From a virus, in the IMG/VR virus record IMGVR_UViG_3300032011_000028, positions 1 to 41,626 of that record: 41,626 bases of DNA; one strand, given 5' to 3'. Under the pieces are notes generated by a model that did no database searches, was not told the DNA's origin, and saw only the letters and a list, made by a program, of their open reading frames with translations. The position numbers and the translations under genes are program-made. Shown here piece after piece: positions 5,201 through 39,996 of the stretch (position 1 is the stretch's first letter; the number at the start of each line of letters is the position of its first letter).

Positions 5201-8200
5201 GTAGCGGGTTGTGTTAGGTAATCCCACTTACCCATATTGTTTTGTCTAAATACGTTTAGATCATTATCCATTTCAATAGGAATAATAGCTACTTTGTATT
5301 TATCAAATAAAACATCTAAATCTATTTTTTGTAATTTAAAAAAGTGAGCGGTTAAATATCTAGCCATTGCATCGGTAGATATCAAATGTTCATATCTGTT
5401 TAAACCATTTTCAAACCCATCAGCAAGATAATATTTTACTGCAGCCGCAGCTTTAAGCATGGAATTCATATTGCTTTTTAATGACATCATTGTCATTATC
5501 CAATCAACAGTTGTTCCGTTCTTTTTTACATAACCTAACCAATCAAGTAATTCTTCTTTAGCTTCAATAGAAGCATCCAATCTTTCGCTAGCTTCATCTA
5601 CGAATACTTCTTTAGTTATGTTTTGCTGGCCACCTTTAAGTTTTTTAGTAGCGGCCTGTTTAGGTGTTGTAAGTTTTTCTTGTATGTTTTCTGCTTTGCC
5701 GTTTGAAGTAACGGTTGTAATTTTAAAACCGCTTCCGGTTTGCACACCACTGAATACAATGTTTTTCCCTGCGTCTTTAAAAGCAGTATTCATCATGTTC
5801 ATTAAATCTTCATTACCTCTTGTAATTTGATTTCTTTTCCCTTTTTCAAAAGCGTCCGCGCCAGCAGTAGCCATATGCCCTTGCTGCCACTTTAAAAATC
5901 TTATAGCAGTATTTTTATTTAAAGTCTGTATATATTTGCTTACAAGCTCTCTGTGTTTATTAACATAATCAGGAGTCCTAAACAATTCTGTTTGAGAGTT
6001 AATATCTAATTTTTTAAGACTAACACCAGATAAAAATAATACTGTTTTGCTTGTCATCATTTCTGATGCTGCAATTTCATCTAACAATACTCTACTAAAA
6101 TTAACATTCTCAGTTCTATCACTTTTTGTTAAAAATCTTTTTATAACATTAACAGACCTTCTTGAAAATTGCTCTATTTCTTTTGGGGTTAATCCTAAGT
6201 CTAAATCTTTCATAACCCCTTGCACGCGCGCGTAGGTTATATTATCACCCTCTTTAAACCTATTCTCTAATGCTTTTAATATCTTGGCTTCATTAGCGGC
6301 TACTGTGTTGGCAATATTTTTAGATAAACTAAATTTAGCGGGCCTTCCGTCTACTTGCTTCACAACTTCACCAACATAGTTCTCCATTAACTGTAAACCT
6401 AGTGCTGCTTGGTTTTTTTCAAAGGCATCTTTTATAGGGCCGCCAAATTCTATTTGATCTCTGAATATTTCTAATCCAATTTCAGATCCTATCTCAGCAG
6501 CTAAAGCTTCTTTCCTGCCTCTTATAGGCGTTCCATCGGGCTTGGTTATAAAATCTGCAAATTCTGCATCATTAACACTTGCTGACTTTCTTCTTCTAAC
6601 TAACTGAGGACCAGACGTTTGGCCTTGTTGATCAGTAGATGTTTTTGCTCGATCTATTTTTTTACCAACCCAACCAGGGTAGTTTATAAAATTAGGAATA
6701 AATATAAAATCACCATTAGAATCTTTTTTTCTTTTTCCGTCTTGGTCTGTTTCATATCTTCCTCCAACAGATTTTTGAATAACGACTGGTATACCGCCAT
6801 CAACTGTACCTTTTTTCTTATTGTCTTTACCCATTAAAAATGTAAGAGTAGAGTTTTCAATAATAGCTTTTTTATTTTTTATAGACCATTTTCTTAAAGC
6901 TCTATCCGCTTTGCCACCCATTTCTTTTTTAAGAATGATATCAGCTTGAGTCTTTAAATCATTTTTAATTTCATTAATTAAATCAGTTTTAGTTTTATTA
7001 ATTGTACCAACTTGATCTAATCTAGATTTTAAAATTCTCGTTGCAGACAAAACAGAATTTGCAACATCTTTAAATGCTTTAGGTGAAATTATTTTACTTT
7101 TAGTAAATGCCCTATATGTTGGCTTATCGACTTTTTTAGTAGGCCCAGATTCATCAGCAATTTCATTTGTAGATTCATCTGTTCTTTTTGTAAAAGTTTT
7201 CTTTTCAATTTTTCTAACTCCACTCAAATATTTTCTTTCAAGATAAGAATTTATCCAAGCGTCTAAATCTTGGTTTTGAGAAGGATTAAAATTATTGATA
7301 TGATTAAGAGTTTCTAAAGTAGCTTCCATCATAGCGTCTTCTTTAGCAGCAGCTAGTGCCTGAGCATCACCTTCAAAAGTTGCCGTATTAAACATTGAAG
7401 ATTTGGAATTCTGTATAGATTCTAACACTGGTATAAATGGTGCTATAATTTTGCCCATAGCTTGTTGGCCTCTAGGTGTTTTTAAAAACGGATCTTTAGA
7501 TGTTTGCCACTGTGGATTGTCTTCTACAATTTTATTTACTAGCGCTTTTCTTTTTGCTGGTGGTAATTTACTTTGGCTTTTTTTAGCCCTTTCATTTTTA
7601 GCAATAGTACTTAGCTCTCCTTCAAATGTTACATTAGTTGGTGACCCTTGGTGAGCAGCTTTATTAAAGTCTTCAATAAACATTGCCGCATATTCTCCTT
7701 GATTTTCTTTTAATTTTAATGAAGGAAATTTGGTACCAATAACTCTATTGTACCATAGCCGCATAGCGTTTGTTGTACTTGGTTTTAATTGTGCACCATC
7801 GGCAATAACATCAGACATTGCATTTAAAGCTTCTGAATAATATTCATCACCTTTAGCTTGATCGGCTTCTTCAAGGTAGCTTTGATTTAATCTGTATTGC
7901 ACTTTAGCAAACATGTCTTTATCGTTTTGTTCCAGCCAATCCAATAGTTCTTTACCCGCATCATTTTCATTAATACCGTTTTGTTCTGCATAAGCATGCA
8001 AAACTTCATGAGCAAATATACCTATTCTTTTATTTTTAATCGATGCATCTTTATCTACAAGTATTACACCATTTAAATAAACTCCCTCGAAGCTACCCTC
8101 ATTTAAAGCCCTAGCCATTTCTATTATTTCAGCAGCTGTAGCTCCAGCGTTTTTGTATGCCTCTAATATAGCTTCATTTTTACCTTCACCTTCAAACGTC

Positions 8201-11034
8201 TGTATATCTATAGGCGTCTTAAGATTCTGTTCTGCAAACTTTCTTGCGTTCTCTTCGCCTTTCTCTATTTTTTCTTTGTATACATTATCCACATAATCTT
8301 GGGCCGCTCTATTTTTAACCTGATCTGGAGTTGGGTTATCAACGCCCTCGGCAACAAACTTAGAAACTGCATCGGCATAGCCATTTTGCTTTTCCACTTC
8401 GGTTTGTTTATTGTACTCAGTCATAATGTCAAGCTGGCTTTCGTTCAGCATAGCAGCATCGTAGAAAGCATACCCCATTGTGTTATCAAAGGCTAAAGTA
8501 TTTACTGTATTGGATTTTTGATTAGCCTCTATAGTACCAGCGTCTGTAAGTATTTGTTGCTTTTGCAACTCTAGTTTATCAAACTCTTTTCTTAATTGAG
8601 CTTCGTAAGTTTTTAATTGATCAGCCCCTATATTTTTATTAGCAATAGCCGCTAGTAACTGATTGTTTAAATACCTCATCTTTTGGTTTATACCACCAAT
8701 TGCATAAAGCTGCTCTGCATTTAGATTAGTGCCGGCCATTTGAATGATTTGATTAATCATCTGTTCGCCTTCAGATTCTAGCTTATCTACTTGATCCTTA
8801 ATTTCTTTAGGCAAGTTTTTATATTGATCTAGGTTTTTTAATTGCCCAACATTAGTTAATTCATTTACGCCGGTTAACCCTCGTAACTGTTCAACTATTT
8901 CGATCATTCTTTTGCGCTGCTCTTTGGTTTCTAGTTCTGAAGCAATACCGCTTCTAACGGCTTTAAGCGCATTAATTGATTTTAAACCACCACCCATTAA
9001 GGCACCTCCTGCGAACGATTCTAATCCACCTTCAAAAAAGTTTTTATCTTCACCGAGTATATATATATCTCCAAAGTTTTGTACTAAAGTAGTAGCAAAT
9101 TCAGAACCACCCTCTCGCCCAATTCCACCACCAATTTGCTTACCAGCATAGCCAGCTATACTACCCCATTTGCTAAAGCCGTCTTTTAACGCCCAAGGTG
9201 GCATACCTTTTATACCTGTTTTTAAACTTTTGAATATAGCTATAGTGCCGACTCTTTCAAAAGCAACCTCTGCTAAACCATGTAATGCTGCATTAGACAA
9301 TGTTCTCCAATTAGAAACATTTAATATTTCTGCATCTTTTTGCATTTCATTTTCAATGCTGGCACGAGTTAGCTCATCTAATGTTATATCGTCTAATAAT
9401 TTTTTATTCTCAACCATCCTAACCGCGGCGTCTTGTTGTCTTACAGCTACGTCCGATGTAGAGCTACCAAATCCTGATAGAAAAAATAATGGTAATGCTG
9501 CTGGTCCCGTTGTAGCCATAGCAAGCGATGGAATTAAATTCATGCTCGTACCCGCAACCCACCTACTTGCATTACTAAGATTCCAATCTATATCGCCAAA
9601 CTCAGGGTTTACTTGGAAAGATTCTGTTTCTATATTTAAATCAGATACTAAATCTACAAGGCCCGTAGCGTCGTTTAATCGTTGGGTGTTAACAGCAGAT
9701 GGCAATGCAAAATACAATGGATCGTTGGCCATTTGCGCAAGTGTAGCTAAACCATATGTTACTGTAGCACCTGTTTGTTTAAACGCAGTCGCAAGTTGTT
9801 CTAATCTGCTGTAGTTTTTTGAAAAATCCTGTATTGCAATTGGCACATACTCCATCCTATCATCTAACCCTTCGTCTATTAATTTGTTTTGTAAAGTCTG
9901 TAATCTACCTTGCTCTATTAATAAATCATTTTGTAATTTAAAAGCAATGTCATATGTTTCAATAGAAGGAGCTAATTCATATTCGTCTAAAGCATATTCA
10001 AATTCCAATGCTTTTTTAGAAAATTGTTTATTTATAGCGTCAAAGTTTTTTAATTGCTCTACATCATATGTAGCCAAAGCAAATATATCCATTCTCTCTT
10101 CGTCAGTGCTATCATTAGCCCACTCACTAGATTTTTCTAATGTATATTGCTTTTTTCTTTCTATATCCCATGCGGTTTTTTCTTCTTCTGTAACATCATT
10201 AAGGACCCCTGTGTTCCAATATTGATTATATTCTTCTAGCTCTGCTTCGTTTCCGTTGAAATCTTCAACAGTAGCTGGTTTAATTTCTTGCCCCACCGCC
10301 AAAGGCATCTTATCCATTGGGTCGTTTTCGTAAATTGTTTCTGTTAATTCACGACGTATTCTTTTAAACTTTTTTATTTTGTCTTCAATAAGGCCTTCAC
10401 TTATTTGAGTTTCAGAATACTCTGGCGCAGTTACATAAGGTATATAATCATTTATGTAAGTGTCTTCGCTCCTTTCAGCGGCCTGATTAACAAAATTTAA
10501 GTCTGCATTTTCAGATATAAATTTGTTTATTTCATCAGCTGCTTTTTGTAATTCTTCGTCACTTCTATTTTCTCCAATTCTAGTGGCATAAAACAAATCG
10601 CTCACGCTGTCTTCAAGGTAATCAGCAATGAAAGAACTACCCTGTGGCGCATTACGAGCTTCTTCTCTTTGTTCCGCACTAGTTAGAGTTAAAGCATCAT
10701 TCATTAAAGACTGTTCAGCCTGTATACCTATTCTAGCTAACTTCTTATTTAAAGCGGGTACTGCTATTTCTTCATTAGTACGTAAGTCTTCTATAGTTAC
10801 AAAGTAATCATCGGGTGATCCCAATAAAGTATTTTCCGAATTGGAATCCCCATCGGACGCTTGATTGTTCCCTGGAGCTACAGACGCATCCGTCTCCGCA
10901 ACCCCGTTTCCCTTTACTTTTAGTCCAGCAAAATCTAAATAAGATTGTAAATCTGTAAACTCAACTAAAGCCATATCTTCTGCAACTTGTGCTTCTGAAA
11001 GCACAGCGCCATTACTAGTTATGTATTCTGGCAT
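2278..11034 (-). CDS. Giant polyvalent virion protein with zincin and HAD domains
   Basis: A 2918-residue protein, the largest gene here, just before the lysis genes. Visible parts: an acidic, charged N-terminus; hydrophobic Gly/Ala-rich stretches near residues 490-535 and 635-680 that could enter membranes; a zinc-peptidase motif HEVLH at 1009-1013 with a candidate third ligand near E1064-E1068; a HAD-type phosphatase-like motif DFDDT at 2023-2027, with LTARP and FVDDAMKN (D2158-D2159) following; and a C-terminal region (about 2618-2918) with FQNTPMQYTRL and a hydrophobic segment that I recall from large marine-phage proteins. It fits the class called large polyvalent proteins, thought to be packaged and ejected with DNA. 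In the absence of a tape measure it probably acts as an internal or ejection protein. No RNA polymerase DxDxD motif was found. The individual enzyme activities are inferred. Confidence 0.8.
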   Translation of the reverse strand: MPEYITSNGAVLSEAQVAEDMALVEFTDLQSYLDFAGLKVKGNGVAETDASVAPGNNQASDGDSNSENTLLGSPDDYFVTIEDLRTNEEIAVPALNKKLARIGIQAEQSLMNDALTLTSAEQREEARNAPQGSSFIADYLEDSVSDLFYATRIGENRSDEELQKAADEINKFISENADLNFVNQAAERSEDTYINDYIPYVTAPEYSETQISEGLIEDKIKKFKRIRRELTETIYENDPMDKMPLAVGQEIKPATVEDFNGNEAELEEYNQYWNTGVLNDVTEEEKTAWDIERKKQYTLEKSSEWANDSTDEERMDIFALATYDVEQLKNFDAINKQFSKKALEFEYALDEYELAPSIETYDIAFKLQNDLLIEQGRLQTLQNKLIDEGLDDRMEYVPIAIQDFSKNYSRLEQLATAFKQTGATVTYGLATLAQMANDPLYFALPSAVNTQRLNDATGLVDLVSDLNIETESFQVNPEFGDIDWNLSNASRWVAGTSMNLIPSLAMATTGPAALPLFFLSGFGSSTSDVAVRQQDAAVRMVENKKLLDDITLDELTRASIENEMQKDAEILNVSNWRTLSNAALHGLAEVAFERVGTIAIFKSLKTGIKGMPPWALKDGFSKWGSIAGYAGKQIGGGIGREGGSEFATTLVQNFGDIYILGEDKNFFEGGLESFAGGALMGGGLKSINALKAVRSGIASELETKEQRKRMIEIVEQLRGLTGVNELTNVGQLKNLDQYKNLPKEIKDQVDKLESEGEQMINQIIQMAGTNLNAEQLYAIGGINQKMRYLNNQLLAAIANKNIGADQLKTYEAQLRKEFDKLELQKQQILTDAGTIEANQKSNTVNTLAFDNTMGYAFYDAAMLNESQLDIMTEYNKQTEVEKQNGYADAVSKFVAEGVDNPTPDQVKNRAAQDYVDNVYKEKIEKGEENARKFAEQNLKTPIDIQTFEGEGKNEAILEAYKNAGATAAEIIEMARALNEGSFEGVYLNGVILVDKDASIKNKRIGIFAHEVLHAYAEQNGINENDAGKELLDWLEQNDKDMFAKVQYRLNQSYLEEADQAKGDEYYSEALNAMSDVIADGAQLKPSTTNAMRLWYNRVIGTKFPSLKLKENQGEYAAMFIEDFNKAAHQGSPTNVTFEGELSTIAKNERAKKSQSKLPPAKRKALVNKIVEDNPQWQTSKDPFLKTPRGQQAMGKIIAPFIPVLESIQNSKSSMFNTATFEGDAQALAAAKEDAMMEATLETLNHINNFNPSQNQDLDAWINSYLERKYLSGVRKIEKKTFTKRTDESTNEIADESGPTKKVDKPTYRAFTKSKIISPKAFKDVANSVLSATRILKSRLDQVGTINKTKTDLINEIKNDLKTQADIILKKEMGGKADRALRKWSIKNKKAIIENSTLTFLMGKDNKKKGTVDGGIPVVIQKSVGGRYETDQDGKRKKDSNGDFIFIPNFINYPGWVGKKIDRAKTSTDQQGQTSGPQLVRRRKSASVNDAEFADFITKPDGTPIRGRKEALAAEIGSEIGLEIFRDQIEFGGPIKDAFEKNQAALGLQLMENYVGEVVKQVDGRPAKFSLSKNIANTVAANEAKILKALENRFKEGDNITYARVQGVMKDLDLGLTPKEIEQFSRRSVNVIKRFLTKSDRTENVNFSRVLLDEIAASEMMTSKTVLFLSGVSLKKLDINSQTELFRTPDYVNKHRELVSKYIQTLNKNTAIRFLKWQQGHMATAGADAFEKGKRNQITRGNEDLMNMMNTAFKDAGKNIVFSGVQTGSGFKITTVTSNGKAENIQEKLTTPKQAATKKLKGGQQNITKEVFVDEASERLDASIEAKEELLDWLGYVKKNGTTVDWIMTMMSLKSNMNSMLKAAAAVKYYLADGFENGLNRYEHLISTDAMARYLTAHFFKLQKIDLDVLFDKYKVAIIPIEMDNDLNVFRQNNMGKWDYLTQPATNRYYDEVMYGYKNMVPIEVIEGENKGDLIGEEFVAFNKLTSDQAATKSTEAQIADKALNKARRLSYSRKPSKGISVYDFDDTLAFSKSNIIVTMPDGTVKKITPAEFAAQDEILSEQGASFDFSEFNKVVEGTPGPLAPRLKKAIKKFGNKNIFVLTARPQQSAIAIHTFLKELGLTIPLENIVGLENGSPAAKAGWMINKVAEGFNDFYFVDDAMKNVKAVKDVLDVFDVNGKVQQARARFSKSMNQTMNEMIQRNKGVSAEAVYSQIVARREGAKKGKYKFFVPYSAEDFRGLTSYTLAGKGKQGEADQAFFEKALIDPYTRGVAALESERQNIINGYKVLLKNSAGMKRKLGKTIGGTKYTNEQAARIYLYNKMGYEIPGLSKRDKAQLLSFVEADNKLKEFAEGLLLVGKNNEWIEPGEFWDVGSILKDLNNMTQTISRKEYLAEFIENVDNIFDANMMLKLEANYGTLYVKALKDSIRRMKSGSNRPGSVGSMESKWLNWVNNSVGTIMFFNRRSALLQMLSFTNFVNWSDNNPLNAAAAFANQPLYWKTWVKIFNSDKLKQRRGGLRSDVQEQEIANQAKNSKDKVSAITAYLLKIGFTPTQIADSMAIASGGATFLINRTKTYVKQGMSKAEAEAKAFQDFTKISDETQQSGDPMLISSQQSSHLGRLILAFQNTPMQYTRLIKKAGQDIINGRGDFKTNVSKIMYYGFVQNLIFSGLSNALFALIPGFDDEEADEDDLDKKSRRILNNMIDTILRGSGLGGAVVSTLKNAIQRYQFEAAKGSFKADHVNTLIELLNVSPPIGSKVRKVYSAIQTKDVYEKDVIAERGFDVTIDGRFNISPTYNVIGNLTSAFLNLPLDRLVVELQAVSEALDERNTAYQRIALGLGWRTWDVNAKNEEGDLIKVTAKEERKVLSKEKAAETRRVNKETLMNLEINLSGEYFIEYYTWKKGKSIQEKIEWLKSKNK

Positions 11035-26856: not shown

Positions 26857-28110
26857 CTATTTTAAATGTTTAAATGTTTTAATTTTAAGTTTACTGCTAT
26901 CATTCCCCGAACCAACTGATCTAACATTCCAACCATTGGCAGTCTTAACATCTGAATGGACACCTCTCGCCCCCATCTTAACGTTTTTGGCTTTTGTTGT
27001 ACTGTCTTTAATTGCATCTGCTTTACCTTGTTCGTAAAAGTGTTTTGCAACTTGATCTGGATTCATAGCTGTAAATAAGCTTTTATGATAACCGGAGGCA
27101 TCTGACATTTCATTATTTTCATTCAAGAACTTCTTGACAAAATTGTTAATGTCGCTCTGGCTATCCTTGACCTTGTTTGCGTCTTTAACATTAAACCTAT
27201 ATTTTTTATCGCCGACGTTATATTCAAAACCTTTGAAATCGTCATTGAAAACTTGGTTTGTTTTATTTAAAAACGCATCAGTCTGCTTTTTAGCTACGGA
27301 TGATTGCTCTTTTTGTTCTTTATTATATCGGTTAAAGAACTCTACCGCTTTTTGTTGTTCCGGTAATAATTTACTACCGCCTTTTATTTCTGCATAATAT
27401 TTAGATTTTAATCCATCTAAATAATTTTTTGCATTAGCAAGTTCTTCTTTTCTTGCTATTTTCTTTTTTCTAATATCTTTTTCATCGTCTTCATCTTCAT
27501 TATAAGAAAACTTATCTTCCATAATAAAGTTAATTTCGTCTCTATCAAGATGAGGTTTCGATGTTTGATAATACTCTGCTAATAGTTGATTTTCATTTAA
27601 TGAATCATAATCAGTATTTAGCTTTACGTAGTCTTCTAAACTACCTCCTGTTTCATTTACAAAGTCTACAACCTTTTGAATGTTTTCAGGCAATTCTATA
27701 CCAGATTCTTTTTGTTCCGCTATTGCTTCAGCTACATCTTCTTTTAATTCTTGTGTAACTTCTTGCGTTATTTCCTCTTTCTTTTCTTCCGTTATTTCTT
27801 CAAGTACAGTTTCTTCTACTGGTTTTTCAGGTACGGATTCTTCAGCTTGAACGGGCTCTGGTTGTTGTGGTATTTCTTTTTCCACTTCTTGTACAGGTTC
27901 GGCTTGTTTATCTGTAACCACGTCTGCTGCTTCTTGCTTTGTATTGGCATCTTGTTCTGGTTTTTTAGTTAAATCAAGTTTTATATTACCAGTTTCCTCG
28001 TTAATAACGGCTGGTCCTGTTTGAGCTGGAGATTCTTTAACTTCAGCTTCTTTTGTTTTTTTGGTGTTTTTTATTTTAAAACTACCTTCTGTTTTTGCTG
28101 CTTTAGCCAT
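26857..28110 (-). CDS. Capsid scaffold protein
   Basis: A 417-residue protein, very rich in Glu, Lys and Gln. Residues about 30-150 are low-complexity acidic (repeats of EPVQ, EEIT, EVTQEL), followed by charged helices (residues 150-330) including a DEDDEKDIRKKKIARKEE patch, and a basic C-terminus ending SKLKIKTFKHLK. Scaffold proteins commonly have acidic helical bodies and a basic C-terminal element that grips the capsid protein. The place between portal and major capsid genes is the standard one. It has no enzyme motif; a self-cleaving protease is not seen. Confidence 0.75.
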   Translation of the reverse strand: MAKAAKTEGSFKIKNTKKTKEAEVKESPAQTGPAVINEETGNIKLDLTKKPEQDANTKQEAADVVTDKQAEPVQEVEKEIPQQPEPVQAEESVPEKPVEETVLEEITEEKKEEITQEVTQELKEDVAEAIAEQKESGIELPENIQKVVDFVNETGGSLEDYVKLNTDYDSLNENQLLAEYYQTSKPHLDRDEINFIMEDKFSYNEDEDDEKDIRKKKIARKEELANAKNYLDGLKSKYYAEIKGGSKLLPEQQKAVEFFNRYNKEQKEQSSVAKKQTDAFLNKTNQVFNDDFKGFEYNVGDKKYRFNVKDANKVKDSQSDINNFVKKFLNENNEMSDASGYHKSLFTAMNPDQVAKHFYEQGKADAIKDSTTKAKNVKMGARGVHSDVKTANGWNVRSVGSGNDSSKLKIKTFKHLK

Positions 28111-30577: not shown

Positions 30578-32788
30578 CTATTTTATTATTTTTGATAATT
30601 CCCCATTTTGTTTATACTTTGCAAAGCTTAAATTAATAGGTGATCTTTGTAATTTATTTGTTGGTCTATACAGATCTTTATGACAAGCCATTACTGCTAA
30701 TCCCGAACTTATAGCCGCATCAAATTTTGTTCTATTATTTATATCAAATTTAGCCCAATCATTTAATGTGTCTGTAAAATACATAGAACCGTAGTTACCA
30801 TTGGATTGCAATCCTACGTGTTTATCTATATACATTTCTATAGCAGCTGCGTGAGCTTGCTTAATATCTTCACTTGAGTTAGGTATTCCACCAACTTCTC
30901 TTTCTGAAACTGATAACTTGTTCCATAATTTGTCAGGCCTATTCATTGAATATCCTCTATAACCGCGCCTTTTTAAATAATATAATAACCTAGGTTTATT
31001 ATTTTCTGCTAATATTGGCATTCCATAAAATACTATAGCCATTAAAACATCTTCAAAAAACATTTCAGCTGTTTGCGGTCTTGCTATATATTCTAAAAAA
31101 AATGTGCTAGGGGGTGCATCCTCCATGCTGAATTTAGTTAACCCATGCAACGCGCCTTTAGAACCTTTGCCGTCTGTTGTACCTGATATATCGTAACTGT
31201 CACAACCAAAAGCACCCACGTGTTCTAATCCCGGCCATCTAACTCCATTCTTTATTATCTGCCTATTTTGTAACTCATAAGAAGGAGTCCAGCTTATTAA
31301 AAACCTTCCATTTGGGTTTGGCGTAAAAATTACTTTTGAATCTTTAATACCATTTTCCCACATAAAACTACCGCGAGTTAATACATTACTATGCCGTAAA
31401 TCTTCGTTGTAATCTATTTGTTCGTATATTTTTACTAAATTAAATATACTATTTTTGGTTTCATCCCTAAACGCATGCTCCTCTGTACGTGGAAACTGTC
31501 TGTAATACTCGTTTAGAGCGTCCTGGTCACCTTTTAAACCTTCAGCTTCGTTATTCCAATGCTCTATGACTCCGACGTCTATAATGTCCCCGTATGGCCC
31601 AACTTTTTCTTCTTCTGGTGTGTTGAATACAGGTATGCCATGAGAATCAATGAATCCTTCGTAGTTCCATTCCATAGGTATGAACAAAGAATATAGTCCG
31701 CTGCGAGTCTGTCCATTGGCGTTTCTTTTTGTGACATCTGAATCATTGTATAATCTTTTAAAATTGTCACCACCTTTGTCTAAAGCGTTTGATGTGCTTC
31801 CCATCATACACTTACCTATTACTCTACTACCTAGTCTTAACGTGGTTTTCGTAACCCTCCAGTTGTTGAGGATGTTGTTCGGCCTTTCCCATTTGCCCGA
31901 TTCGTCATGGACGAGAAGTTTAAGCTTCTCCCCGTCGTATGCGTTGTCACCGGTGTTCTTCCAATCGATCGTGGTGTCGAGACCCGATAAGGTTTCAACG
32001 GCGGTGTTATTGTCAAGTTTACGTCTTGTGAACTTGGACGCTGGAACACGATAGGCGAGCTCGGTTTTGGGGCGGTCCATACCGTCCTGTATTGGTTTGA
32101 AAAAGAAGGGGTAATTAACCGATATCGGTACCACCTTATCGGTAAACATCTTTTTCGCATCAGCCCCAGACTTGGATAGTATACCATATCGTGAATCGGA
32201 ATTAATAGTGGCGAGATTAACGGTTTCTCCAGAGGCCATAAATGAAAAGCCAGACCGTCTATTCTTGAGGTAGCACATCCCATAGGATCTGGAATCTGCC
32301 TTGCAAGCTTCCCAGAAAATGTAGAATAATCTATTTGCTTCGCGAAACTCTGGCTTCCCAACATCAATCTTGGACCACTGCAAGTACATAAAGTGAGTAC
32401 CAGTAATGTAAGTAGCCACACCTTTATTATTGAACCAATGGCCTTTTTCTCTTTTGTTAAACTGTTCATCGATATATGTGCCCCATTTTGATTTAAACTC
32501 TTCGGGATATTCTCTCCAATCAAATATACTTTTAATTAGTTTTAATTCCTTCGGATATTCCGCGGGCGTCCACTTGTCATTTGATTTGTCTAACTTTGCT
32601 GGTGCTTTTGGCAAAGCTATCTTCAGATTCTGTATATTATATATTTCTCCGATTTGGCCCGACTTACTTATAACAACTACATCATGCTCTTTGTTATAAC
32701 CATACTTCCATTTCTTACTCTTATTTAGTCTAGATAAAGTAGTTTGTTTAATTGGTGTTATTACACTATATAAACTTTGTTCGTACAT
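30578..32788 (-). CDS. terL: Terminase large subunit
   Basis: Packaging motor ATPase and nuclease, 736 residues. The ATPase domain shows a deviant Walker A LKNRRSGFSFMAS (K175 to S182, with F where GKS/T would have K) and Walker B LLVHDESGKWE (D295, E296). The RNase H-like nuclease starts with FGCDSYDISGTTDGKG (D530). The GCDxYDIxGTTDGKGSKG form is one I recall from marine and crAss-like phages. The start shares a base with the stop of the small subunit (TAATG). A stretch covering residues about 130-320 is clearly richer in G+C (around 47 percent) than the rest of the gene, suggesting recombination. Confidence 0.93.
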   Translation of the reverse strand: MYEQSLYSVITPIKQTTLSRLNKSKKWKYGYNKEHDVVVISKSGQIGEIYNIQNLKIALPKAPAKLDKSNDKWTPAEYPKELKLIKSIFDWREYPEEFKSKWGTYIDEQFNKREKGHWFNNKGVATYITGTHFMYLQWSKIDVGKPEFREANRLFYIFWEACKADSRSYGMCYLKNRRSGFSFMASGETVNLATINSDSRYGILSKSGADAKKMFTDKVVPISVNYPFFFKPIQDGMDRPKTELAYRVPASKFTRRKLDNNTAVETLSGLDTTIDWKNTGDNAYDGEKLKLLVHDESGKWERPNNILNNWRVTKTTLRLGSRVIGKCMMGSTSNALDKGGDNFKRLYNDSDVTKRNANGQTRSGLYSLFIPMEWNYEGFIDSHGIPVFNTPEEEKVGPYGDIIDVGVIEHWNNEAEGLKGDQDALNEYYRQFPRTEEHAFRDETKNSIFNLVKIYEQIDYNEDLRHSNVLTRGSFMWENGIKDSKVIFTPNPNGRFLISWTPSYELQNRQIIKNGVRWPGLEHVGAFGCDSYDISGTTDGKGSKGALHGLTKFSMEDAPPSTFFLEYIARPQTAEMFFEDVLMAIVFYGMPILAENNKPRLLYYLKRRGYRGYSMNRPDKLWNKLSVSEREVGGIPNSSEDIKQAHAAAIEMYIDKHVGLQSNGNYGSMYFTDTLNDWAKFDINNRTKFDAAISSGLAVMACHKDLYRPTNKLQRSPINLSFAKYKQNGELSKIIK

Positions 32789-33063
32789 TATTTAGATCTT
32801 CTTTCAGCAAACCCACCAAAAGTTGTTTGTTCGACTTCTTCTTTTGGTTTGTTTTCAATTATTCTTTGCTCCTCATCAATTCTGCTTAATATTTCAAAAG
32901 CATCAAATATAGCCAGCTTTTTTGTGGCTGCTGCATTTTTTAATCTGTCAGCTGAGATATCATCGTCCGAATCTACAATAGCTTCTTTTGCTACTTTAAT
33001 TAATTCCTCAACTGCTTTGTGCCCAGCCTGGATTATATTCTTCTTCGTCTCCTTGATATTCAT
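32788..33063 (-). CDS. Probable terminase small subunit
   Basis: A 91-residue helical protein from MNIKETKKNIIQAGHKAVEE; an upstream ATG at 33081 would add six residues. The segment DISADRLKNAAATKKLAIFD is one I recall in short genes directly before terminase in marine phages. The small subunit recognises packaging DNA and oligomerises through helices, and size and place fit. There is no clear helix-turn-helix that can be assigned by eye. Either start overlaps the 3' end of the upstream chaperonin-like gene by 56-74 bases, and its stop overlaps the terL start (TAATG). Confidence 0.65.
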   Translation of the reverse strand: MNIKETKKNIIQAGHKAVEELIKVAKEAIVDSDDDISADRLKNAAATKKLAIFDAFEILSRIDEEQRIIENKPKEEVEQTTFGGFAERRSK

Positions 33064-33601
33064 ATTTAATTGTAATTGCATTCATGGGAACTCGGTATAA
33101 CCTTTGCCCTTCTATTATAAACTCGTATTCTGAATTTGGTTTAAAACCAACAAGCGTTTCTACTTCAATTTGTTCATTGCCGTATTTTACAATGCCGATT
33201 AATGGCCTTTCTTTTTCTATGGAAATTTCGTCCGTTTCTTTTATAGGCATTACAAAAACAAAACCTTCTAGTGCTTTCCACTCATTATTTTGTTTGTAAG
33301 CATATATTTGATCAGGCTGCACTAAATAAATATCCTCTTCAAAATAGTTTTTACTATTCTTTTCTTTACCACGTATATCTCTAAATCTTCTAAATATATT
33401 GTGATGTACAATAACCTCTAACCCTTCTTTAATTTCGTTATACATTCTTGCGCGAGGCAATCCTATAACAATACCAATTCTTTGAGTATATTGATGATTT
33501 TGTAATTCAGTGTTTAATAGTAACTCGTTACCTTCTATCTCTTTTTTTCCTGTTGTCCTACTGCCCTTCGGTTTTACCAGGTAATTGAATACACTCTGCA
33601 T
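33008..33601 (-). CDS. Tandem GroES-like (Cpn10-fold) protein
   Basis: A 197-residue protein that can be read as two Cpn10-like units. Unit one (about 4-103): NYLVKPKG, a loop with ELLLNT like the GroES mobile loop, RIGIVIGLP, IKEGLEVIVHHN and EEDIYLVQPDQIYAY match the strand order of GroES. Unit two (about 110-180): GFVFVMPI, LIGIVKYG, then FIIEGQRLYRVPMNAITI. Phages such as T4 use a GroES replacement (gp31) for capsid folding, so a co-chaperonin role is plausible. It ends YNPGWAQSS and overlaps the terS start. The assignment is by pattern only; unit two is weaker, with no clear mobile loop. Confidence 0.6.
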   Translation of the reverse strand: MQSVFNYLVKPKGSRTTGKKEIEGNELLLNTELQNHQYTQRIGIVIGLPRARMYNEIKEGLEVIVHHNIFRRFRDIRGKEKNSKNYFEEDIYLVQPDQIYAYKQNNEWKALEGFVFVMPIKETDEISIEKERPLIGIVKYGNEQIEVETLVGFKPNSEYEFIIEGQRLYRVPMNAITIKYEYQGDEEEYNPGWAQSS

Positions 33602-34221: not shown

Positions 34222-34545
34222 TTAACAATTCCATTTACGTCTAGCCGCTTTACCTCTTTCTCCAGTCCACCCACGAGATCTAGCGCAAAATGATTTACGT
34301 CTTTTTGCAGCCTTGCTATCTGGATCTAATTTGGAAGGAGGGGTTGTAACAGCTGTTTTTAAATTACCTCCTGTTTTTCTATTATAATTCGCTACACCTT
34401 TAGCGGTCATTCCGCCACCTGCATCTTTTCCAGTACCGCCTCCTTTTTTAACTTCGGCGTAATTGCCAGACTTTTTGTTTCTTGCTGGCGCATAAGACTT
34501 AGATTTAGCTTTTTTGAATGGTGAGTTGTGTTGTATATATGCCAT
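34222..34545 (-). CDS. Basic KRRKSFCAR-domain protein (DUF6321-type)
   Basis: A 107-residue, strongly basic protein. Residues 44-107 (GGMTAKGVANYNRKTGGNLK, later KAAKRRKSFCARSRGWTG and ending RRKWNC) match a small domain I recall in tailed phages and in large algal viruses, labelled DUF6321 if memory serves; function unknown, nucleic-acid binding likely from charge. The N-terminus carries one NSPFKKAK motif related to the SPAK motifs of its neighbours. Stop and start codons abut or overlap those of adjoining genes. Confidence 0.7.
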   Translation of the reverse strand: MAYIQHNSPFKKAKSKSYAPARNKKSGNYAEVKKGGGTGKDAGGGMTAKGVANYNRKTGGNLKTAVTTPPSKLDPDSKAAKRRKSFCARSRGWTGERGKAARRKWNC

Positions 34546-35531
34546 TATTTCCCAAAGTATTTAAGTTTCATAGGCGCACCTTTTCTAAAGAATTTTGATT
34601 TTTTCGGGGCTGCAGTTTTCACTTCTTTTAAAGGTATATCTAAATTTTTTTGCTCTTCAACACTTAATTCATTTTGCTTTAAATCTCTACCTTCACCCCT
34701 AACAGTCCCTTGAGTGCCTAAATAATTAGCCCCATACCCGGAAGTTTGGTTTTGCTTGCTTTGATTTTTTACATTAGTTAACTCGTTGTCAGAAATTTCA
34801 TATCTACTTTGTGCTTTTGAAAGTTTATTTAAATCGCTTTGACTTAAATTGTCATTAGCCTTAAAGTTGCCTTCTGCATCAAATGTTCCATACTTGCCCA
34901 TTTGTCTTCTATACTTGCCTACTCTTCGACTCGTATGTATTCCACTTCTTATATTATTACGTCTTTGCAAAGAAGTTTGAGCGGTACCAGAATCGTTAGT
35001 TCTTAAGGTTAATTCACCTTTTTCGAGTTTGTCGTCTTCACCAGTTGTTGTATCTGGTTCTGGATCTTTAATATTTTCATCTGCCCATACGCATCCCTTA
35101 ACGCCTCTTTTACGAGAGCCATCTGCATTATAACATTTTTCTTTAAAGGATTTATCTTGCGCAGCGGTTGAATCGGGTGTATCTTGTACACACTTACCCG
35201 CCGCATTCTTAGTAAAACCTTTGCCACAACCACCTTTTTTAGTAATTAAGTCGCCGGCTGTTGTTCTTTTTTTAACAGTTTTTATAGTGCCATCAGGACC
35301 TAGCTCTTGATTCTGGGAAGTCTCTACGTGCCCAGGCTCATGCGCTTTTAAGGGGCTAATGTTTATAGAAAACCCTTTTTTTTTAGCTGGCGATTTTGTA
35401 GCAGCGTCGCTAGTGGTGTTGTCCCCGTATACGCCGGCTGGCCCAACATTAAGAATAGGCTCTGTAACACCTTTCTTTTGATTGAATAAACCTTTGTTTA
35501 CTCTAGCTGTTATTGGTATATTTTTTCCCAT
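34545..35531 (-). CDS. SPAK-motif protein, Cys-containing, unknown function
   Basis: A 328-residue, Lys/Thr/Asn/Gly-rich, largely disordered-looking protein. SPAK at 47-50 and SPLK at 59-62 link it to the neighbouring small basic proteins. Two pairs of cysteines occur in short Gly/Lys segments (CGKGFTKNAAGKCV and KCYNADGSRKRGVKGCVW). The C-terminus is very basic (APKKSKFFRKGAPMKLKYFGK). No catalytic motif, signal peptide or membrane span. It overlaps the next gene by one base. Perhaps a virion or DNA-associated protein; not recognised. Confidence 0.6.
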   Translation of the reverse strand: MGKNIPITARVNKGLFNQKKGVTEPILNVGPAGVYGDNTTSDAATKSPAKKKGFSINISPLKAHEPGHVETSQNQELGPDGTIKTVKKRTTAGDLITKKGGCGKGFTKNAAGKCVQDTPDSTAAQDKSFKEKCYNADGSRKRGVKGCVWADENIKDPEPDTTTGEDDKLEKGELTLRTNDSGTAQTSLQRRNNIRSGIHTSRRVGKYRRQMGKYGTFDAEGNFKANDNLSQSDLNKLSKAQSRYEISDNELTNVKNQSKQNQTSGYGANYLGTQGTVRGEGRDLKQNELSVEEQKNLDIPLKEVKTAAPKKSKFFRKGAPMKLKYFGK

Positions 35532-35545
35532 GATTAGTTGTTATG

Positions 35546-36043
35546 TTATAATTTAAATTCCGAAATATCCGGTATTTCTAGTTCTGTGTCAAATTTTTTT
35601 CCTGTAAACGAAGCAAATGGATTGTCATCCTCTTTACTTACATCGTTACTTAGGTTCGCGGTTTTCGCTGGTGGCTTTTGATCTCCAAATCCTTTTTTCA
35701 CTTCAGCGGCATAATCAATGCCTCTTTTGCTAGCTAATACATCTTTCTCTCCTTCTATTAAAGCCATGTTCATTTTTGCTGGAGATTTAGACTTGGTTGT
35801 TATTGGATTAGCCATGTCCCCATTATAGCCATCTTGAAAGTAAGCTTCACCTCCATAAAAATTTTTATTTAATTTGGCAGGAGATCGTCTTTTAGCAAAC
35901 ATAGCTTCAGCTTCTTTCAAATGTACTCTACCACCAACCCCTTGTCTAGGGCCTGGCGCAGACTTCTCTTGAAAGCCGCTGGCGTTTCTATTGTCTGATA
36001 TTTTATTAAGCTCCTCAGCTTTTCCTCTAAAATTTATTGCCAT
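35546..36043 (-). CDS. SPAK-motif small protein, unknown function
   Basis: 165 residues, no known family. Contains SPAK at 54-57 and 87-90 and a variant PPAK at 124-127. The two SPAK sites are each followed by a short hydrophobic/Asn segment (LNKNF, MNMAL). The C-terminal 30 residues are acidic (FDTELEIPDISEFKL), unlike the basic rest. It shares one base with the upstream gene (TAATG). Function cannot be assigned; the shared motif with six neighbours suggests a common partner, such as DNA, a protease or a capsid part. Confidence 0.6.
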   Translation of the reverse strand: MAINFRGKAEELNKISDNRNASGFQEKSAPGPRQGVGGRVHLKEAEAMFAKRRSPAKLNKNFYGGEAYFQDGYNGDMANPITTKSKSPAKMNMALIEGEKDVLASKRGIDYAAEVKKGFGDQKPPAKTANLSNDVSKEDDNPFASFTGKKFDTELEIPDISEFKL

Positions 36044-36300
36044 TATTTTTTATATTTAGTTACTCTGCCTTTTGTATCTTTTTCTCTTTTTGCAGCTGCT
36101 TTTTCACTAGGTGATAATTCGCTCCAGGTTGCTGGTGTTTTACTTGAAACTCTTTTAGTTGGCCTAAAAGTATTTTCACCACCCTCATAGCCTTTCTTGC
36201 CGCTGGGTGTTCTCCAATCTTCTTTAAACCATCGTTTAAGTGCTGCACCCTCTTTGGTTTTTCTAACTTGTAGAGGTGAACCTTTCATTTTAAAAGCCAT
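36043..36300 (-). CDS. Basic LKRWFKEDW-motif small protein
   Basis: 85 residues, highly basic, starting MAFKMKGSPLQVRK. The segment LKRWFKEDWRTPSGKKGYEG resembles a motif (LKRWFKEKW) I remember in small basic proteins of tailed phages and large eukaryotic viruses. The second half is a Ser/Pro/Ala/Lys helix (ELSPSEKAAAKREKDTKGRV). It shares single bases with both neighbours (TAATG overlaps). Probable nucleic-acid binding from charge only. Confidence 0.6.
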   Translation of the reverse strand: MAFKMKGSPLQVRKTKEGAALKRWFKEDWRTPSGKKGYEGGENTFRPTKRVSSKTPATWSELSPSEKAAAKREKDTKGRVTKYKK

Positions 36301-36782
36301 TATTTTTTTGAATTACCCCAATTAGCAGCTCCAACTTTTCTACATTTGGCCATTGCTCCACTTCTATATGCAGAATTTTTTGGACCATACCTGGCAACTA
36401 CCTTTTTATAGCATGCATCTTTTTTTAATGGTGAAGAATTTTTATATGCTTCATCTTCCCATTCAAAATCAGGATGCCCTTCATTCATAGTTTCCCTATT
36501 ATAAACTTTAGCTGGAGATTTAGTGTCTTTTTTCCAAGTTACGGTTTGATTATCATACTGCAACCTTCCTTGTGCCATTTGATCTAAATGCACTTTTTCG
36601 TGATCAACCGCTTCTTTAACTTTTTTGTCAGACAGTTTTGAATTAACAAATATAGTACCATCACGATTTGCTTCGCCTTCTATACCTTTCTCTAAATCAT
36701 CTTTTAAAATAATAGGTTTTCCAAATTCGGAGTCTTTATGTATTCCGAACACGTCATGTAACGGACGAAGTTTAAATGCCAT
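36300..36782 (-). CDS. HExxH zincin-like protein with CYxK...CRK basic tail domain
   Basis: 160 residues in two parts. Residues 1-115 look like a minimal zinc metallopeptidase: AVDHEKVHLDQM gives HExxH at 61-65, and FEWEDEAY at 106-113 offers a downstream Glu ligand (E109 or E111), as in gluzincins. Residues 121-160 (DACYKKVVARYGPKNSAYRS, then CRKVGAANWGN) are a basic domain I recall in tailed phages and large algal viruses, probably the family called DUF5872 (number from memory). SPAK (89-92) and SPLK (117-120) sit in the linker. If active, it could process head proteins; this is a guess. Start and stop overlap both neighbours by one base. Confidence 0.65.
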   Translation of the reverse strand: MAFKLRPLHDVFGIHKDSEFGKPIILKDDLEKGIEGEANRDGTIFVNSKLSDKKVKEAVDHEKVHLDQMAQGRLQYDNQTVTWKKDTKSPAKVYNRETMNEGHPDFEWEDEAYKNSSPLKKDACYKKVVARYGPKNSAYRSGAMAKCRKVGAANWGNSKK

Positions 36783-37147
36783 TACTTAGAGTATTTACCG
36801 CCTTCTTTATTACCGTAGCCTCCTTTGTTCGCTGCTTGCGCATTTTCTGCATAATGTTTACGTGCAGATTTGCTTAAGCTTTGATTAGACGCTTCTTTAA
36901 TATCATAAGACATTCCTTTGTTCATTTTTTTAGCTGGAGAATCATAATCTGCTTTAGAAGCTGATTGATCGCCATGAGATGAACCATCTTTGCCTTTATA
37001 ACCTTTATCTGTACCTTTGTAATTTTTGTAATCTGATCTGCTTGCAGATTGATCACCTTTCATCGCACCGTATTTTTTAGCTGGTGAACCTTTATCACCA
37101 CATCCTATTTTGTTAGGGCCGATACCTTTAAATCCTGAATATGCCAT
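36782..37147 (-). CDS. SPAK-motif small protein with internal GDQSAS repeat
   Basis: 121 residues, rich in Gly, Lys, Ser, Tyr and Asp, probably disordered. SPAKK occurs at 21-25 and 70-74. A ten-residue repeat GDQSASRSDY (31-40) / GDQSASKADY (59-68) lies between them, making a near mirror layout. The C-terminus (QAANKGGYGNKEGGKYSK) is Gly/Lys-rich. No family is recognised. It belongs to the tightly packed series of SPAK proteins and overlaps the next gene by one base. Confidence 0.6.
   Translation of the reverse strand: MAYSGFKGIGPNKIGCGDKGSPAKKYGAMKGDQSASRSDYKNYKGTDKGYKGKDGSSHGDQSASKADYDSPAKKMNKGMSYDIKEASNQSLSKSARKHYAENAQAANKGGYGNKEGGKYSK
36944..37057 (-). repeat. Internal coding repeat (GDQSAS-x-x-DY)
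   Basis: Two copies encoding nearly the same ten residues, at 37028-37057 and 36944-36973. They differ at two residues, are separated by 18 residues and are flanked on the outside by SPAKK. This suggests short tandem duplication inside a disordered protein. Confidence 0.6.
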
Positions 37148-37168
37148 TGTTTATTATTTATTTGTTAG

Positions 37169-37705
37169 TTAATCTATTTTTTTTTGTGACCCTAATCCGC
37201 CGCCACGTGATTTGTTTTCTCTTGCTTTTTGCTTTGCTGTAGGTCCTGATCCGGCACCTTTCATTTTTGCATTAGCAACTTTGCCGGCAATTTTAGTAGC
37301 TGCCTCTTTTGATTTGCCTTGTTTTTCAAGCTTGCTTACTAAACCTTTAAAGCTTTTAGCTGGGCTACTTTTCTTTTTGCCTATAGCTTTATCTACAACT
37401 TTCCCAACAACAGCTTTGCCTAATGCTCCTGCCACGGCTCCTAGTATTTTAGCCGGGGATTCAGGTCCAATATTTTTAGGTCCAATTTTTGCTGGTGAAC
37501 CTGCTATGTCATCAATGGGCATATACTTGTTCAAATTTTTTCTTTCTTGAGATGCTGATTCTTTTTTGCCTGGCGCAGCCTCTATTTTAGCTTTTAGATG
37601 ATCAGGCAATTTGTGCTGATCTCCCTTCAATGCTTTTTGCGCAGGACTTGGAAAATTTAAAGTCTTCTTTAAAAGAGGAGACTTGGGGTTCATTTTAAAT
37701 GCCAT
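37169..37705 (-). CDS. SPAK-motif basic protein with KEAATKIAGK tail
   Basis: 178 residues, very basic. It begins MAFKMNPKSPLLKKT and carries SPAK at 70-73, 83-86 and 114-117, the most in the array, plus SPLL and SPAQ near the N-terminus. Residues 86-110 are a hydrophobic Ala/Gly/Val helix (ILGAVAGALGKAVVGKVVDK) that could associate with membranes or pack in a capsid. The C-terminal part GKSKEAATKIAGKVANAKMK resembles a Ser-Lys-Glu-Ala-Ala helix seen in other phage and plasmid small proteins. It is the first gene of the SPAK series, 2 bases after the winged-helix gene. Confidence 0.6.
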   Translation of the reverse strand: MAFKMNPKSPLLKKTLNFPSPAQKALKGDQHKLPDHLKAKIEAAPGKKESASQERKNLNKYMPIDDIAGSPAKIGPKNIGPESPAKILGAVAGALGKAVVGKVVDKAIGKKKSSPAKSFKGLVSKLEKQGKSKEAATKIAGKVANAKMKGAGSGPTAKQKARENKSRGGGLGSQKKID

Positions 37706-37707
37706 AA

Positions 37708-38148
37708 TTATCTATTTTTATCATTAATCATATCGTCAATAGCTTTATTGTAAACTTTGTCCGTATATGTTTTGTTATTGTAGAACTTGCTTCGTTCTGA
37801 TGTAGGCATGTCTTCTTCTGCCAGTAATATTCTATATACTCTATTAATTAAATTTTTACAAATATATGAAGTCGTATAAGTGTTAAATTTATTTGTAGTT
37901 CTATTTCTTGCTGAATAAATATCAATCCATCCGTTTTTTCTTAAACGTTCCCATCGGTTTTTATCCCATGAATATGTGTAAGATCCATTAATAAAATCAT
38001 TTCTTGTAAAAAACTTTTTACAATCTAAATATATTAATAATTCTAAATCAGCGTCTTTTAAGTTGTAAGTTTTACATGCCCACTTACGCACTAACCTATA
38101 ATATTTAAATAAATTTAATTCTCTTAAATCGGATGAAGTTAATCTCAT
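37708..38148 (-). CDS. Winged-helix-like protein, probable transcriptional regulator
   Basis: 146 residues, basic, helical at the start (SSDLRELNLFKYYRLVRKWA), with DADLELLIYLDCKKFFTRND, a WDKNRWERLRKNGWIDIY recognition-helix-like segment, and a C-terminal YNNKTYTDKVYNKAIDDMIN. The layout resembles MarR-like winged-helix proteins: helical start, a helix pair, then a Trp/Arg-rich wing (NRTTNKFNTYTTSY). I recall near relatives in uncultured marine phages. It overlaps groES by four bases (ATGA), so it is made with the chaperonins. It may control late genes; DNA binding is inferred. Confidence 0.6.
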   Translation of the reverse strand: MRLTSSDLRELNLFKYYRLVRKWACKTYNLKDADLELLIYLDCKKFFTRNDFINGSYTYSWDKNRWERLRKNGWIDIYSARNRTTNKFNTYTTSYICKNLINRVYRILLAEEDMPTSERSKFYNNKTYTDKVYNKAIDDMINDKNR

Positions 38149-38402
38149 TCTACAATAACCACATCACCAATTGTAATAACTTGGTAAAGTGTGCCGTTCC
38201 ATTCGATACCATGACCTGCATGCTTGTCATATCTAATTATATCGCCGTTCTGTATATGTTCAACCTTATCCCCTACACTAACCACCTTTGCTTTTAAGTA
38301 CCTAATGTCGTTATTATTTTTTTCTGTAATTTCCAAACCACCTACTTTCTTCGGCGCTTCCTTAATTTTATCTATTATAATAAAGTAATTAATTGCTTTC
38401 AA
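38145..38402 (-). CDS. groES: Co-chaperonin GroES
   Basis: 85-residue Cpn10. NYFIIIDKI forms the first strand, VGGLEITE (20-27) is the mobile loop that docks on GroEL, and KAKVVSVGD, NGDIIRYDKHAGHGIEWNG and LYQVITIGDVVIVE complete the barrel. It is about 12 residues shorter than bacterial GroES, and the roof loop near residues 45-52 is reduced. It follows groEL with a 14-base overlap, the reverse of the usual bacterial order, so a phage-specific arrangement. Together with GroEL it should fold capsid or tail proteins. Confidence 0.85.
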   Translation of the reverse strand: MKAINYFIIIDKIKEAPKKVGGLEITEKNNNDIRYLKAKVVSVGDKVEHIQNGDIIRYDKHAGHGIEWNGTLYQVITIGDVVIVE

Positions 38403-39996
38403 GAGATCTTACGTTTGAGATTATACAATCAGCAGATACTATTGTTGTGGCAACACTTATCGCATTTTTTAATGCAGCTTTTGTTACTGATATAGGGTCT
38501 ACAATTCCAGCATCTACCATATCTTTATAACAACCACATGTAGCATCTATCCCCATTCCTTGCCATTTAGAATCTTCCATTTCATTTTCAGGATCCTCTG
38601 TGACTTCTTTAGGAGTAAACACATTTGATATACCAGCATTTTCTAATATAGCATGGTATGGCTCTTGTATTGCGTTTAAAAGAAGACCGTACCCGTCGTT
38701 TTTTATTTCAATTTCCTGTGCGGCATTGAGTAAAGCAACACCACCTCCAGGAACAATACCCTCTTGTAATGCAGCTTTTGTAGCATGCAGAGCATCTTCT
38801 ACCCTATCTTTCTTTTCTTTTAACTCCACTTTAGAATCGGCCCCTACGTAAATTACCCCAACCTTACCAGTTAACATAGATAAACGCTGCTCTAATTTCT
38901 TTTTTAAATAACCGTTCTTTTCGTCTTTTATTTTCTTTTCAACATCTATTATTCTTAAAGCAACCTCTTCATTTGCTTCTGATACTTGTAATGTTGTAGT
39001 CTTGTGATCAGTAACCGCCTTTGCGACTTGGCCTAAACAATCTGGTTGAATTAAATCTAAATCATCCCCAAGCTCTTCGTTAATTACTTTAGCTCCTGTT
39101 AATATTGCTAAATCCTCTATTGAATCTTCTTTTGTTGTTGCAAATCCAGGGAGGTCAACTATATTTACTTTTATATTACCTTTAGCATTATTAGCGACTA
39201 AGGTAGCCCAGGGTTGAGCTTCTAATGTTGCAACTATTAATAAAGGTTTTTTGTTTTTTATAACAAACTCTAATATATTTTGTATACGTCTTATGTTTGG
39301 AATTGGTGAACTTACTATTAATACGTAAGGATTATCTAATATGCAAGTACCCTTGCTTTTATCTGTTATCAGATAGGTTGATTTCATTCCTGAATCAAAT
39401 TGTACGCCATCAACAAATTCAACATAAGTTTCATTTGTTTCTGACTCTTCCATCAGAACGATCCCATTTTTTCCAACTTTTTCAAAAGCTTCGCCGATTT
39501 TTTCTCCAAGCGTAGAGTCATTGTTACATGAAATGTAAGCCACTTGCCTAAGCATATCATCCTTAACCGGAATACTGGCGTTATCAAGATATACCAAAAT
39601 TTCTTTATGGCATTCAGAAATGCCTTCTTTAATGTCTCTAATCGTTTCTTCACCTGCGTATGAATTTATATTATGTAATAAAGAGTGAGCAAGAACGGTA
39701 GCTGTTGTTGTACCGTCCCCTGCTTCTCTTACCGTGTTTGTGGCTGCTTCTTTTATTAAAGTAGCTCCAATGTTTTCGACCGGGTCTATCAAGACTACGC
39801 TTTCCGCAACGGTTACACCATCTTTTGTTATCACCGGTCGGCCCATTGCGTCTTCATATATAACGCATTTTCCAGAAGCTCCAAGAGTGGATCTCACTGC
39901 GTCCGTTAATTTATTAACGCCAGCCATTATTTTATTTCGCGCTTCATCGCCGAAATTCAGATCTTTAACAATCTGACTTGGTAATTTAAATTCCAT
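38389..39996 (-). CDS. groEL: Chaperonin GroEL
   Basis: 535-residue 60 kDa chaperonin, close to the bacterial length of about 548. Nucleotide-site residues are kept: TKDG D59 (E. coli D52), GDGTTTATVLA at 93-103 (D94 for D87), D401 in RVEDALHATKAA (for D398), GGGVAL, and D500 in AGIVDP (for D495). Apical substrate-binding residues are partly changed: the Y199/S201/Y203/F204 positions read M204/S206/Y208/L209, and L259 is W. The Gly-Gly-Met tail is absent; the protein ends VRSLESN. An N-terminal extension of about six residues (MEFKLPSQ) is present. ATPase function should be intact; altered apical residues suggest a special phage substrate. Confidence 0.93.
   Translation of the reverse strand: MEFKLPSQIVKDLNFGDEARNKIMAGVNKLTDAVRSTLGASGKCVIYEDAMGRPVITKDGVTVAESVVLIDPVENIGATLIKEAATNTVREAGDGTTTATVLAHSLLHNINSYAGEETIRDIKEGISECHKEILVYLDNASIPVKDDMLRQVAYISCNNDSTLGEKIGEAFEKVGKNGIVLMEESETNETYVEFVDGVQFDSGMKSTYLITDKSKGTCILDNPYVLIVSSPIPNIRRIQNILEFVIKNKKPLLIVATLEAQPWATLVANNAKGNIKVNIVDLPGFATTKEDSIEDLAILTGAKVINEELGDDLDLIQPDCLGQVAKAVTDHKTTTLQVSEANEEVALRIIDVEKKIKDEKNGYLKKKLEQRLSMLTGKVGVIYVGADSKVELKEKKDRVEDALHATKAALQEGIVPGGGVALLNAAQEIEIKNDGYGLLLNAIQEPYHAILENAGISNVFTPKEVTEDPENEMEDSKWQGMGIDATCGCYKDMVDAGIVDPISVTKAALKNAISVATTIVSADCIISNVRSLESN

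Follow-up and report, generated by a model that had tools for sequence, protein, structure and literature searches.

The internal proteins IPI-IPIII of phage T4 are small basic proteins with unrelated bodies and a short shared N-terminal leader, and their sets vary across related phages; their propeptides of 10-19 residues serve as targeting signals and are cleaved off afterwards by gp21 (PMC9026906). Two other described groups are close to the locus reported here, namely the cyanomyovirus gp114 family (T4-GC0119; DUF6321 proteins, PHROG 727), whose long, lysine-rich proteins each unite several modules spaced by glutamate-ending linkers, and the crassvirus cargo proteins gp45 and gp46 of phi-crAss001. 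The locus is an array of seven genes at 34222-37705, on the minus strand, of the viral record IMGVR_UViG_3300032011_000028 (41,626 nucleotides, analysed at full length and called the window below), whose products share the short motif S-P-x-K (SPxK). Like the T4 internal proteins, they are small and basic and have a shared leader in front of unrelated bodies, but SPxK is repeated and stands internally as well as N-terminally, no sequence relation to the T4 proteins was found, glutamate-specific cleavage, as in T4, is not known for the array, and the phage belongs, to judge from its relatives, to a short-tailed crass-related lineage. With the gp114 family the array has both the DUF6321 and the CYKKV...WGN domain in common, and a CWxGY module in the window's relatives is, judged by eye, shared as well; unlike in that family, which has no SPxK array, the modules are split over several SPxK genes, with a partial fusion in one relative (L187:5006-5755). 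The crassvirus proteins, cargo of virions whose capsid lineage is related (PF25729), measure 60-91 kDa, and family scans found no homology between them and the array. We propose, with a probability of about 0.4, that the array proteins are packed into the head, that SPxK is the recognition tag for a common head-assembly partner, and that the basic modules contact DNA.

All seven open reading frames (ORFs) are open and adjacent to one another (Table 1). Together they hold nine SPAK (one, two, one, two and three in five of the genes), two SPLK and one SPFK, beside the variant forms SPLQ, SPLL and SPAQ, and three of them start with MAFKM or MAFKL; the first-pass annotation, which had drawn attention to seven consecutive genes with S-P-x-K type motifs and to these starts, was exact in every count. 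A true SPxK is present in six of the seven genes, and the one at 36043-36300 has SPLQ only. The same annotation called the genes otherwise unlike, which holds, since BLAST among the seven proteins gave nothing better than E = 0.039. Their isoelectric points (pI) lie between 9.4 and 11.2, and six have a clear net positive charge. When each array protein was shuffled in 2,000 trials, a mean of 0.69 SPxK was obtained (maximum 5), against the 12 observed in 1,144 amino acids, and for SPAK alone the figures are 0.07 and 9. The permuted forms PSxK, KxPS, KPxS, SxPK, TPxK and SPKx are not enriched in the array, and the other 25 ORFs of the window contain one SPxK in 12,542 amino acids. Chance or composition as the cause is ruled out by the shuffles, the permuted motifs and the counts inside and outside the slot given below. 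The nine SPAK copies are written in eight different codings, which rules out recent DNA repeats or duplications and shows that SPAK is selected at the peptide level.

The array occupies a slot that we define as the region between GroEL and the terminase gene. Retrieval from IMG/VR by the terminase gave 80 loci, 19 of which span the slot; in these, 44 SPxK lie inside the slot (5.9 expected) and 11 in the remainder of the same loci (9.7 expected). Because loci fetched by the patterns KSPAKM or MAFKM are biased, this terminase-fetched subset provides our main count; with the motif-fetched loci included, 59 loci contain 311 SPxK against 26.2 expected, a figure biased upward by the fetching. In a scan of the collection, at least two SPxK were present in 24 of 54 non-redundant KSPAKM ORFs and in none of 29 with the permuted KSAPKM, among the matches listed, a comparison that applies to the fractions rather than to the totals. 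The multi-motif loci mostly have the same neighbours, namely terL, GroEL, the gene at 37708..38148 and the zincin-like HExxH gene. The neighbouring slot families (holin-like, acidic coiled-coil and a 73-residue protein) have SPxK in 0 of 150 proteins, and regional composition therefore does not account for the motif. In the family of the 35546..36043 product (n = 22), S, P and K of both motif columns are nearly or fully invariant while x varies, and the first motif column of the 34545..35531 family has invariant S, P and K in 25 relatives; the C-terminus of the latter protein reads APMKLKYFGK, where relatives have SPMKMKYFK, and a relative (L259) has SPFK where the leader of the 36043..36300 product has SPLQ. 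Position x is A, M, L, F or S, and K or R in only 2 of 311 cases; SPxK outnumbers TPxK by 311 to 36 (8.6 to 1), though T is nearly as frequent as S, and lysine is the commonest preceding residue. Two candidates were not counted. One is a KSPAKM that occurs as a single copy (ATWKSPAKMP) in an unrelated, conserved family of enzyme-like proteins; the other is a 59-residue ORF of L085 that contains five SPxK but lies out of frame with a 399-residue gene.

The SPxK proteins are mosaics, with SPxK at the module boundaries. The internal break-points of local homology were compared with the SPxK positions after the motifs had been masked to X: of 272 such ends, 129 fell within 8 residues of an SPxK, against 51.9 at random (maximum 80 in 2,000 trials). 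A leader of the type MAFKMxPKSPxL(M)...SPAK precedes many unrelated bodies, and conversely one DUF6321 body follows three leaders (MAFKMKPCSPALMTTERYASPLK, MAYIQHNSPFK and MAYKQEPKSPVLKRCWEGY...CAKSPAK); in the DUF6321 family, which shows the mosaic structure most clearly, additional modules are inserted between two SPxK sites. Both the leader and the GKSKEAATKIAGKVANAKMKGAGSGPTAKQKAR module of the 37169..37705 protein recur in relatives, as does the MSYDIKEASNQSLSKSARKHYAENAQAA module of its neighbour at 36782..37147. A start with MA followed by F or Y was found in 61/153 SPxK proteins against 21/380, a difference partly biased by the MAFKM-pattern fetching, and in 28/153 the motif lies at most 12 residues from the C-terminus. 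Peptide-level selection, recurrence in the same slot of relatives and the position at module joints support the idea of the first-pass annotation that a common purpose underlies the gain or retention of the motif. One relative (L187:5006-5755, minus strand) encodes a 250-residue protein in which DUF6321, a CWxGY module and a part that resembles DUF5872 are united, with SPAK where they meet; this module set is similar to that of cyanophage gp114.

A link to the virion comes from two of these modules. The CYKKV domain is 68-74% identical to cyanophage virion proteins (E about 1e-14), and DUF6321 matches the cyanomyovirus gp114 family (E about 3e-5) and is also found in a virion protein of S-SCSM1; syn9 gp114 and its homologues unite both domains in one protein. 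In purified virions of S-CREM2, mass spectrometry (MS) identified ORF160 (128342-129235), a carrier of the CYKKV domain, from 7 unique peptides that cover 13.1% of it (PMC10665884). The S-P4 homologue is annotated as structural, and gp029 of S-SCSM1, which adjoins the terminase gene, as 'virion protein'. The N-terminal part of gp114 resembles DUF5872 by eye only. In phi40:1, a phage related by its major capsid protein (MCP), the small basic proteins gp069 and gp080 are encoded upstream of terL and are structural by tandem MS (MS/MS), and they have no motif in common with the array. The notes of KC821614 (phi38:1) refer to similarity with gp69/77/80 of phi18:1, which are absent from the phi18:1 record, and the MS/MS source is apparently phi40:1. 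The modules of the gp114 family are spaced by repeated glutamate-ending linkers (EEVQMEGK, EQVTNEG; L094:2149-3480), which by eye look like prohead-protease sites and may be such.

Because two modules of the window recur in a cyanomyovirus family with a virion-detected member, a place inside the virion is the best reading, and packaging in the head is most likely the common denominator of mostly basic modules, a head-gene neighbourhood and the virion-protein homology. In this role the array proteins would compare with the T4 internal proteins or the crassvirus cargo proteins. They are mosaics of small, often cysteine-containing modules together with at least one zincin-like domain; a putative partner (scaffold, portal or inner capsid surface) would bind SPxK in leaders, in joints and near the termini, unrelated modules would thereby enter the head together, and the basic ones would contact DNA there. 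Three points speak for a recognition tag, which we favour: the specificity of the residues (Ser over Thr, a hydrophobic or small x, and Lys), the presence of the motif in leaders, joints and tails alike, and its additional occurrence on the mildly acidic zincin-like family. Several observations weigh against our proposal. The virion evidence concerns domains of the cyanophage homologues and not the SPxK proteins themselves; the packaging suggested in the first-pass annotation is plausible, with indirect support from homology to an MS-detected protein. The cultured relatives that were read have no SPxK array, which makes it a feature of an uncultured branch. The slot also codes for probably non-structural proteins, a holin-like one and, in relatives, a PAP2-like phosphatase. 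Finally, modules sometimes come without the motif (L014, for example), which is present in 31/54 HExxH and 16/21 DUF6321 proteins and therefore is not essential for each protein. Three other readings of SPxK than a docking tag, each less probable, are a DNA-contacting element, a processing site and a passive linker.

A rather unlikely alternative is that the proteins are packaged to condense DNA and that SPxK itself touches the DNA, as do the S/T-P-K-K repeats of histone H1 tails. The charge and pI of the array proteins fit this, as do the lysine before the motif and the tandem KSPAKM arrays in very lysine-rich chains of relatives (e.g., L225 and L181), and Ser-Pro plus lysine in basic, disordered chains is indeed reminiscent of the SPKK motif of H1. 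The H1 form, S/T-P-K/R-K/R, however, has a basic x and tolerates T, whereas the present motif has hydrophobic or small residues at x and accepts T less readily than S; the window array has no SPKx, and its proteins are modular. SPxK moreover lies near the joints of folded domains and occurs in the zincin-like family, whose mean net charge is -2.7. Together with the residue counts given above, this weakens the minor-groove binding that had first been suggested by analogy with H1.

It is improbable that SPxK marks processing sites at which a head-associated protease, perhaps the zincin-like protein of the array itself, would free leaders and modules during head maturation. The zincin-like protein has an HExxH at 36588-36602 and a CYKKV...WGN domain at 36312-36425; HE..H is retained in 67/73 of its relatives, followed by a conserved W-E-x-E-A, and its predicted fold matches SprT-like phage proteins (E 2e-4). 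Its matches in the PDB are weak (IrrE/PprI and selecase; best E 0.048), and profile searches of the PDB likewise gave weak hits only. It is possibly an active peptidase, a candidate zinc metallopeptidase of the SprT/IrrE-like or gluzincin type. A layout of leader, joint and body like that of the T4 internal proteins would suit processing by analogy, and the gp114 linkers VQMEGK|KDACYKKV and VTNEG|AAWTKK stand where the window and its relatives have SPLK|KDACYKKV and SPTK|KTAAWTRK, but this match was made by eye. The head genes that were scanned include no recognisable prohead protease, and neither the C-terminal motifs nor the tandem SPxK arrays fit cleavage well. A zincin-like HExxH protein with the CYKKV domain is near-universal in the slot of this lineage.

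Least probable is a lineage-specific flexible, soluble linker that is handy for domain shuffling and has no dedicated partner, as the boundary positions and the low model confidence at the SPLK joint would allow (residues 117-120 between the zincin-like and CYKKV...WGN domains, the sole stretch with a predicted local distance difference test score (pLDDT) below 50), but the (nearly) invariant S, P and K beside a variable x in two families, the far greater rarity of other Pro/Lys linkers, and motifs near chain ends, where joints are unneeded, speak against it.

If SPxK is a recognition tag, the proteins that a large group of uncultured marine phages packs and injects could be predicted from sequence, foreign proteins might be loaded into phage heads by means of a portable tag, and the array would be a clear case of evolution by module shuffling at a short linear motif. 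A first testable role would thereby also fall to DUF6321, DUF5872 and the CYKKV domain, elements without an assigned function that are widespread among aquatic viruses. More tentatively, SPxK could be a hitherto undescribed packaging (or packaging-and-processing) signal of one crass-related phage lineage that is independent of T4-type capsid targeting, and, with similar reserve, any module shuffled beside it might then be loaded into the head and delivered into the host. The open-access literature, to which our search was confined (subscription journals lay outside its scope), has no description of an SPxK motif in phages, nothing on SPKK together with phages and no mention of DUF6321; DUF5872 is mentioned in one paper. 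Basic internal head proteins have been described before, and a repeated SPxK joint and leader system in such proteins is, to the extent that we could check, new.

Table 1. The SPxK array and the genes that border its slot in the window (aa, amino acids).
Positions	Strand	Product	Remarks
38145..39996	-	GroEL (38389-39996) and GroES-like protein (38145-38402)	Upstream border of the slot; same order in relatives
37708..38148	-	146-aa protein without SPxK	Conserved; marks the slot's upstream edge; in the loci of 92 relatives
37169..37705	-	SPxK protein, 178 aa, pI 10.8	Leader MAFKMNPKSPLL...SPAQ, three SPAK, GKSKEAATKIAGKVANAKMKGAGSGPTAKQKAR module
36782..37147	-	SPxK protein, 121 aa, pI 10.0	Two SPAK, C-terminal MSYDIKEASNQSLSKSARKHYAENAQAA module
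36300..36782	-	SPxK protein, 160 aa	Zincin-like and CYKKV...WGN domains joined by SPLK; a loop carries SPAK
36043..36300	-	Basic protein, 85 aa, DUF5872	Leader MAFKMKGSPLQ; Pfam PF19197, E=3.7e-13
35546..36043	-	SPxK protein, 165 aa	Two SPAK, the second within the conserved PITxKSKSPxKMNxxLVxG
34545..35531	-	SPxK protein, 328 aa	PITARV..EPILNVGPAGVYG head; SPAK and SPLK near the N-terminus
34222..34545	-	SPxK protein, 107 aa, pI 11.2	Leader MAYIQHNSPFK, then DUF6321 (34258-34431)
30578..32788	-	Terminase large subunit	Borders the slot downstream; 62% identity to the terL annotated in MW202828

Both Pfam assignments within the array exceed their cut-offs, DUF5872 with 50.5 bits against 27.5 and DUF6321 (PF19846) with E=1.5e-14 and 54.8 bits against 28.5. 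In the model of the DUF6321 protein the leader is disordered; with a mean pLDDT of 59 this model is of too low quality for further use.

The terminase gene is followed by genes for a portal, a scaffold-like protein (26857-28110), the MCP and a muzzle-like tail protein; the muzzle domain PF25729, which ties the lineage to the crassviruses, reaches 27.1 bits against a cut-off of 27. Relatives of terminase and MCP are found in phages of Flavobacterium, Cellulophaga and Maribacter and in a spring-water contig, with Tenacibaculum added for the terminase only, and phi13:2, an MCP relative, was ranked among the marine crassviruses by a crassvirus study. The genome matches of the zincin-like gene are metagenome bins, mostly labelled Bacteroidota, which is consistent with the hosts of the phage relatives, and the lineage, a group of uncultured ocean phages, probably infects Bacteroidota. 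In two relatives the slot contains PAP2-like, phosphatase-type ORFs (PSGH...SRRVARAHY or SDARNVARAHY; L187:5745-6347 and L083:1958-2449). Just upstream of the terminase gene, the window encodes a second GroES-like protein besides the GroEL/GroES pair (33008-33601; PHROG co-chaperonin GroES, E=2.7e-14), an arrangement seen again in relatives, and this gene overlaps the same-strand gene at 32788-33081 by 74 bases. After the tail genes, a single ORF of 2,918 amino acids occupies 2278-11034.

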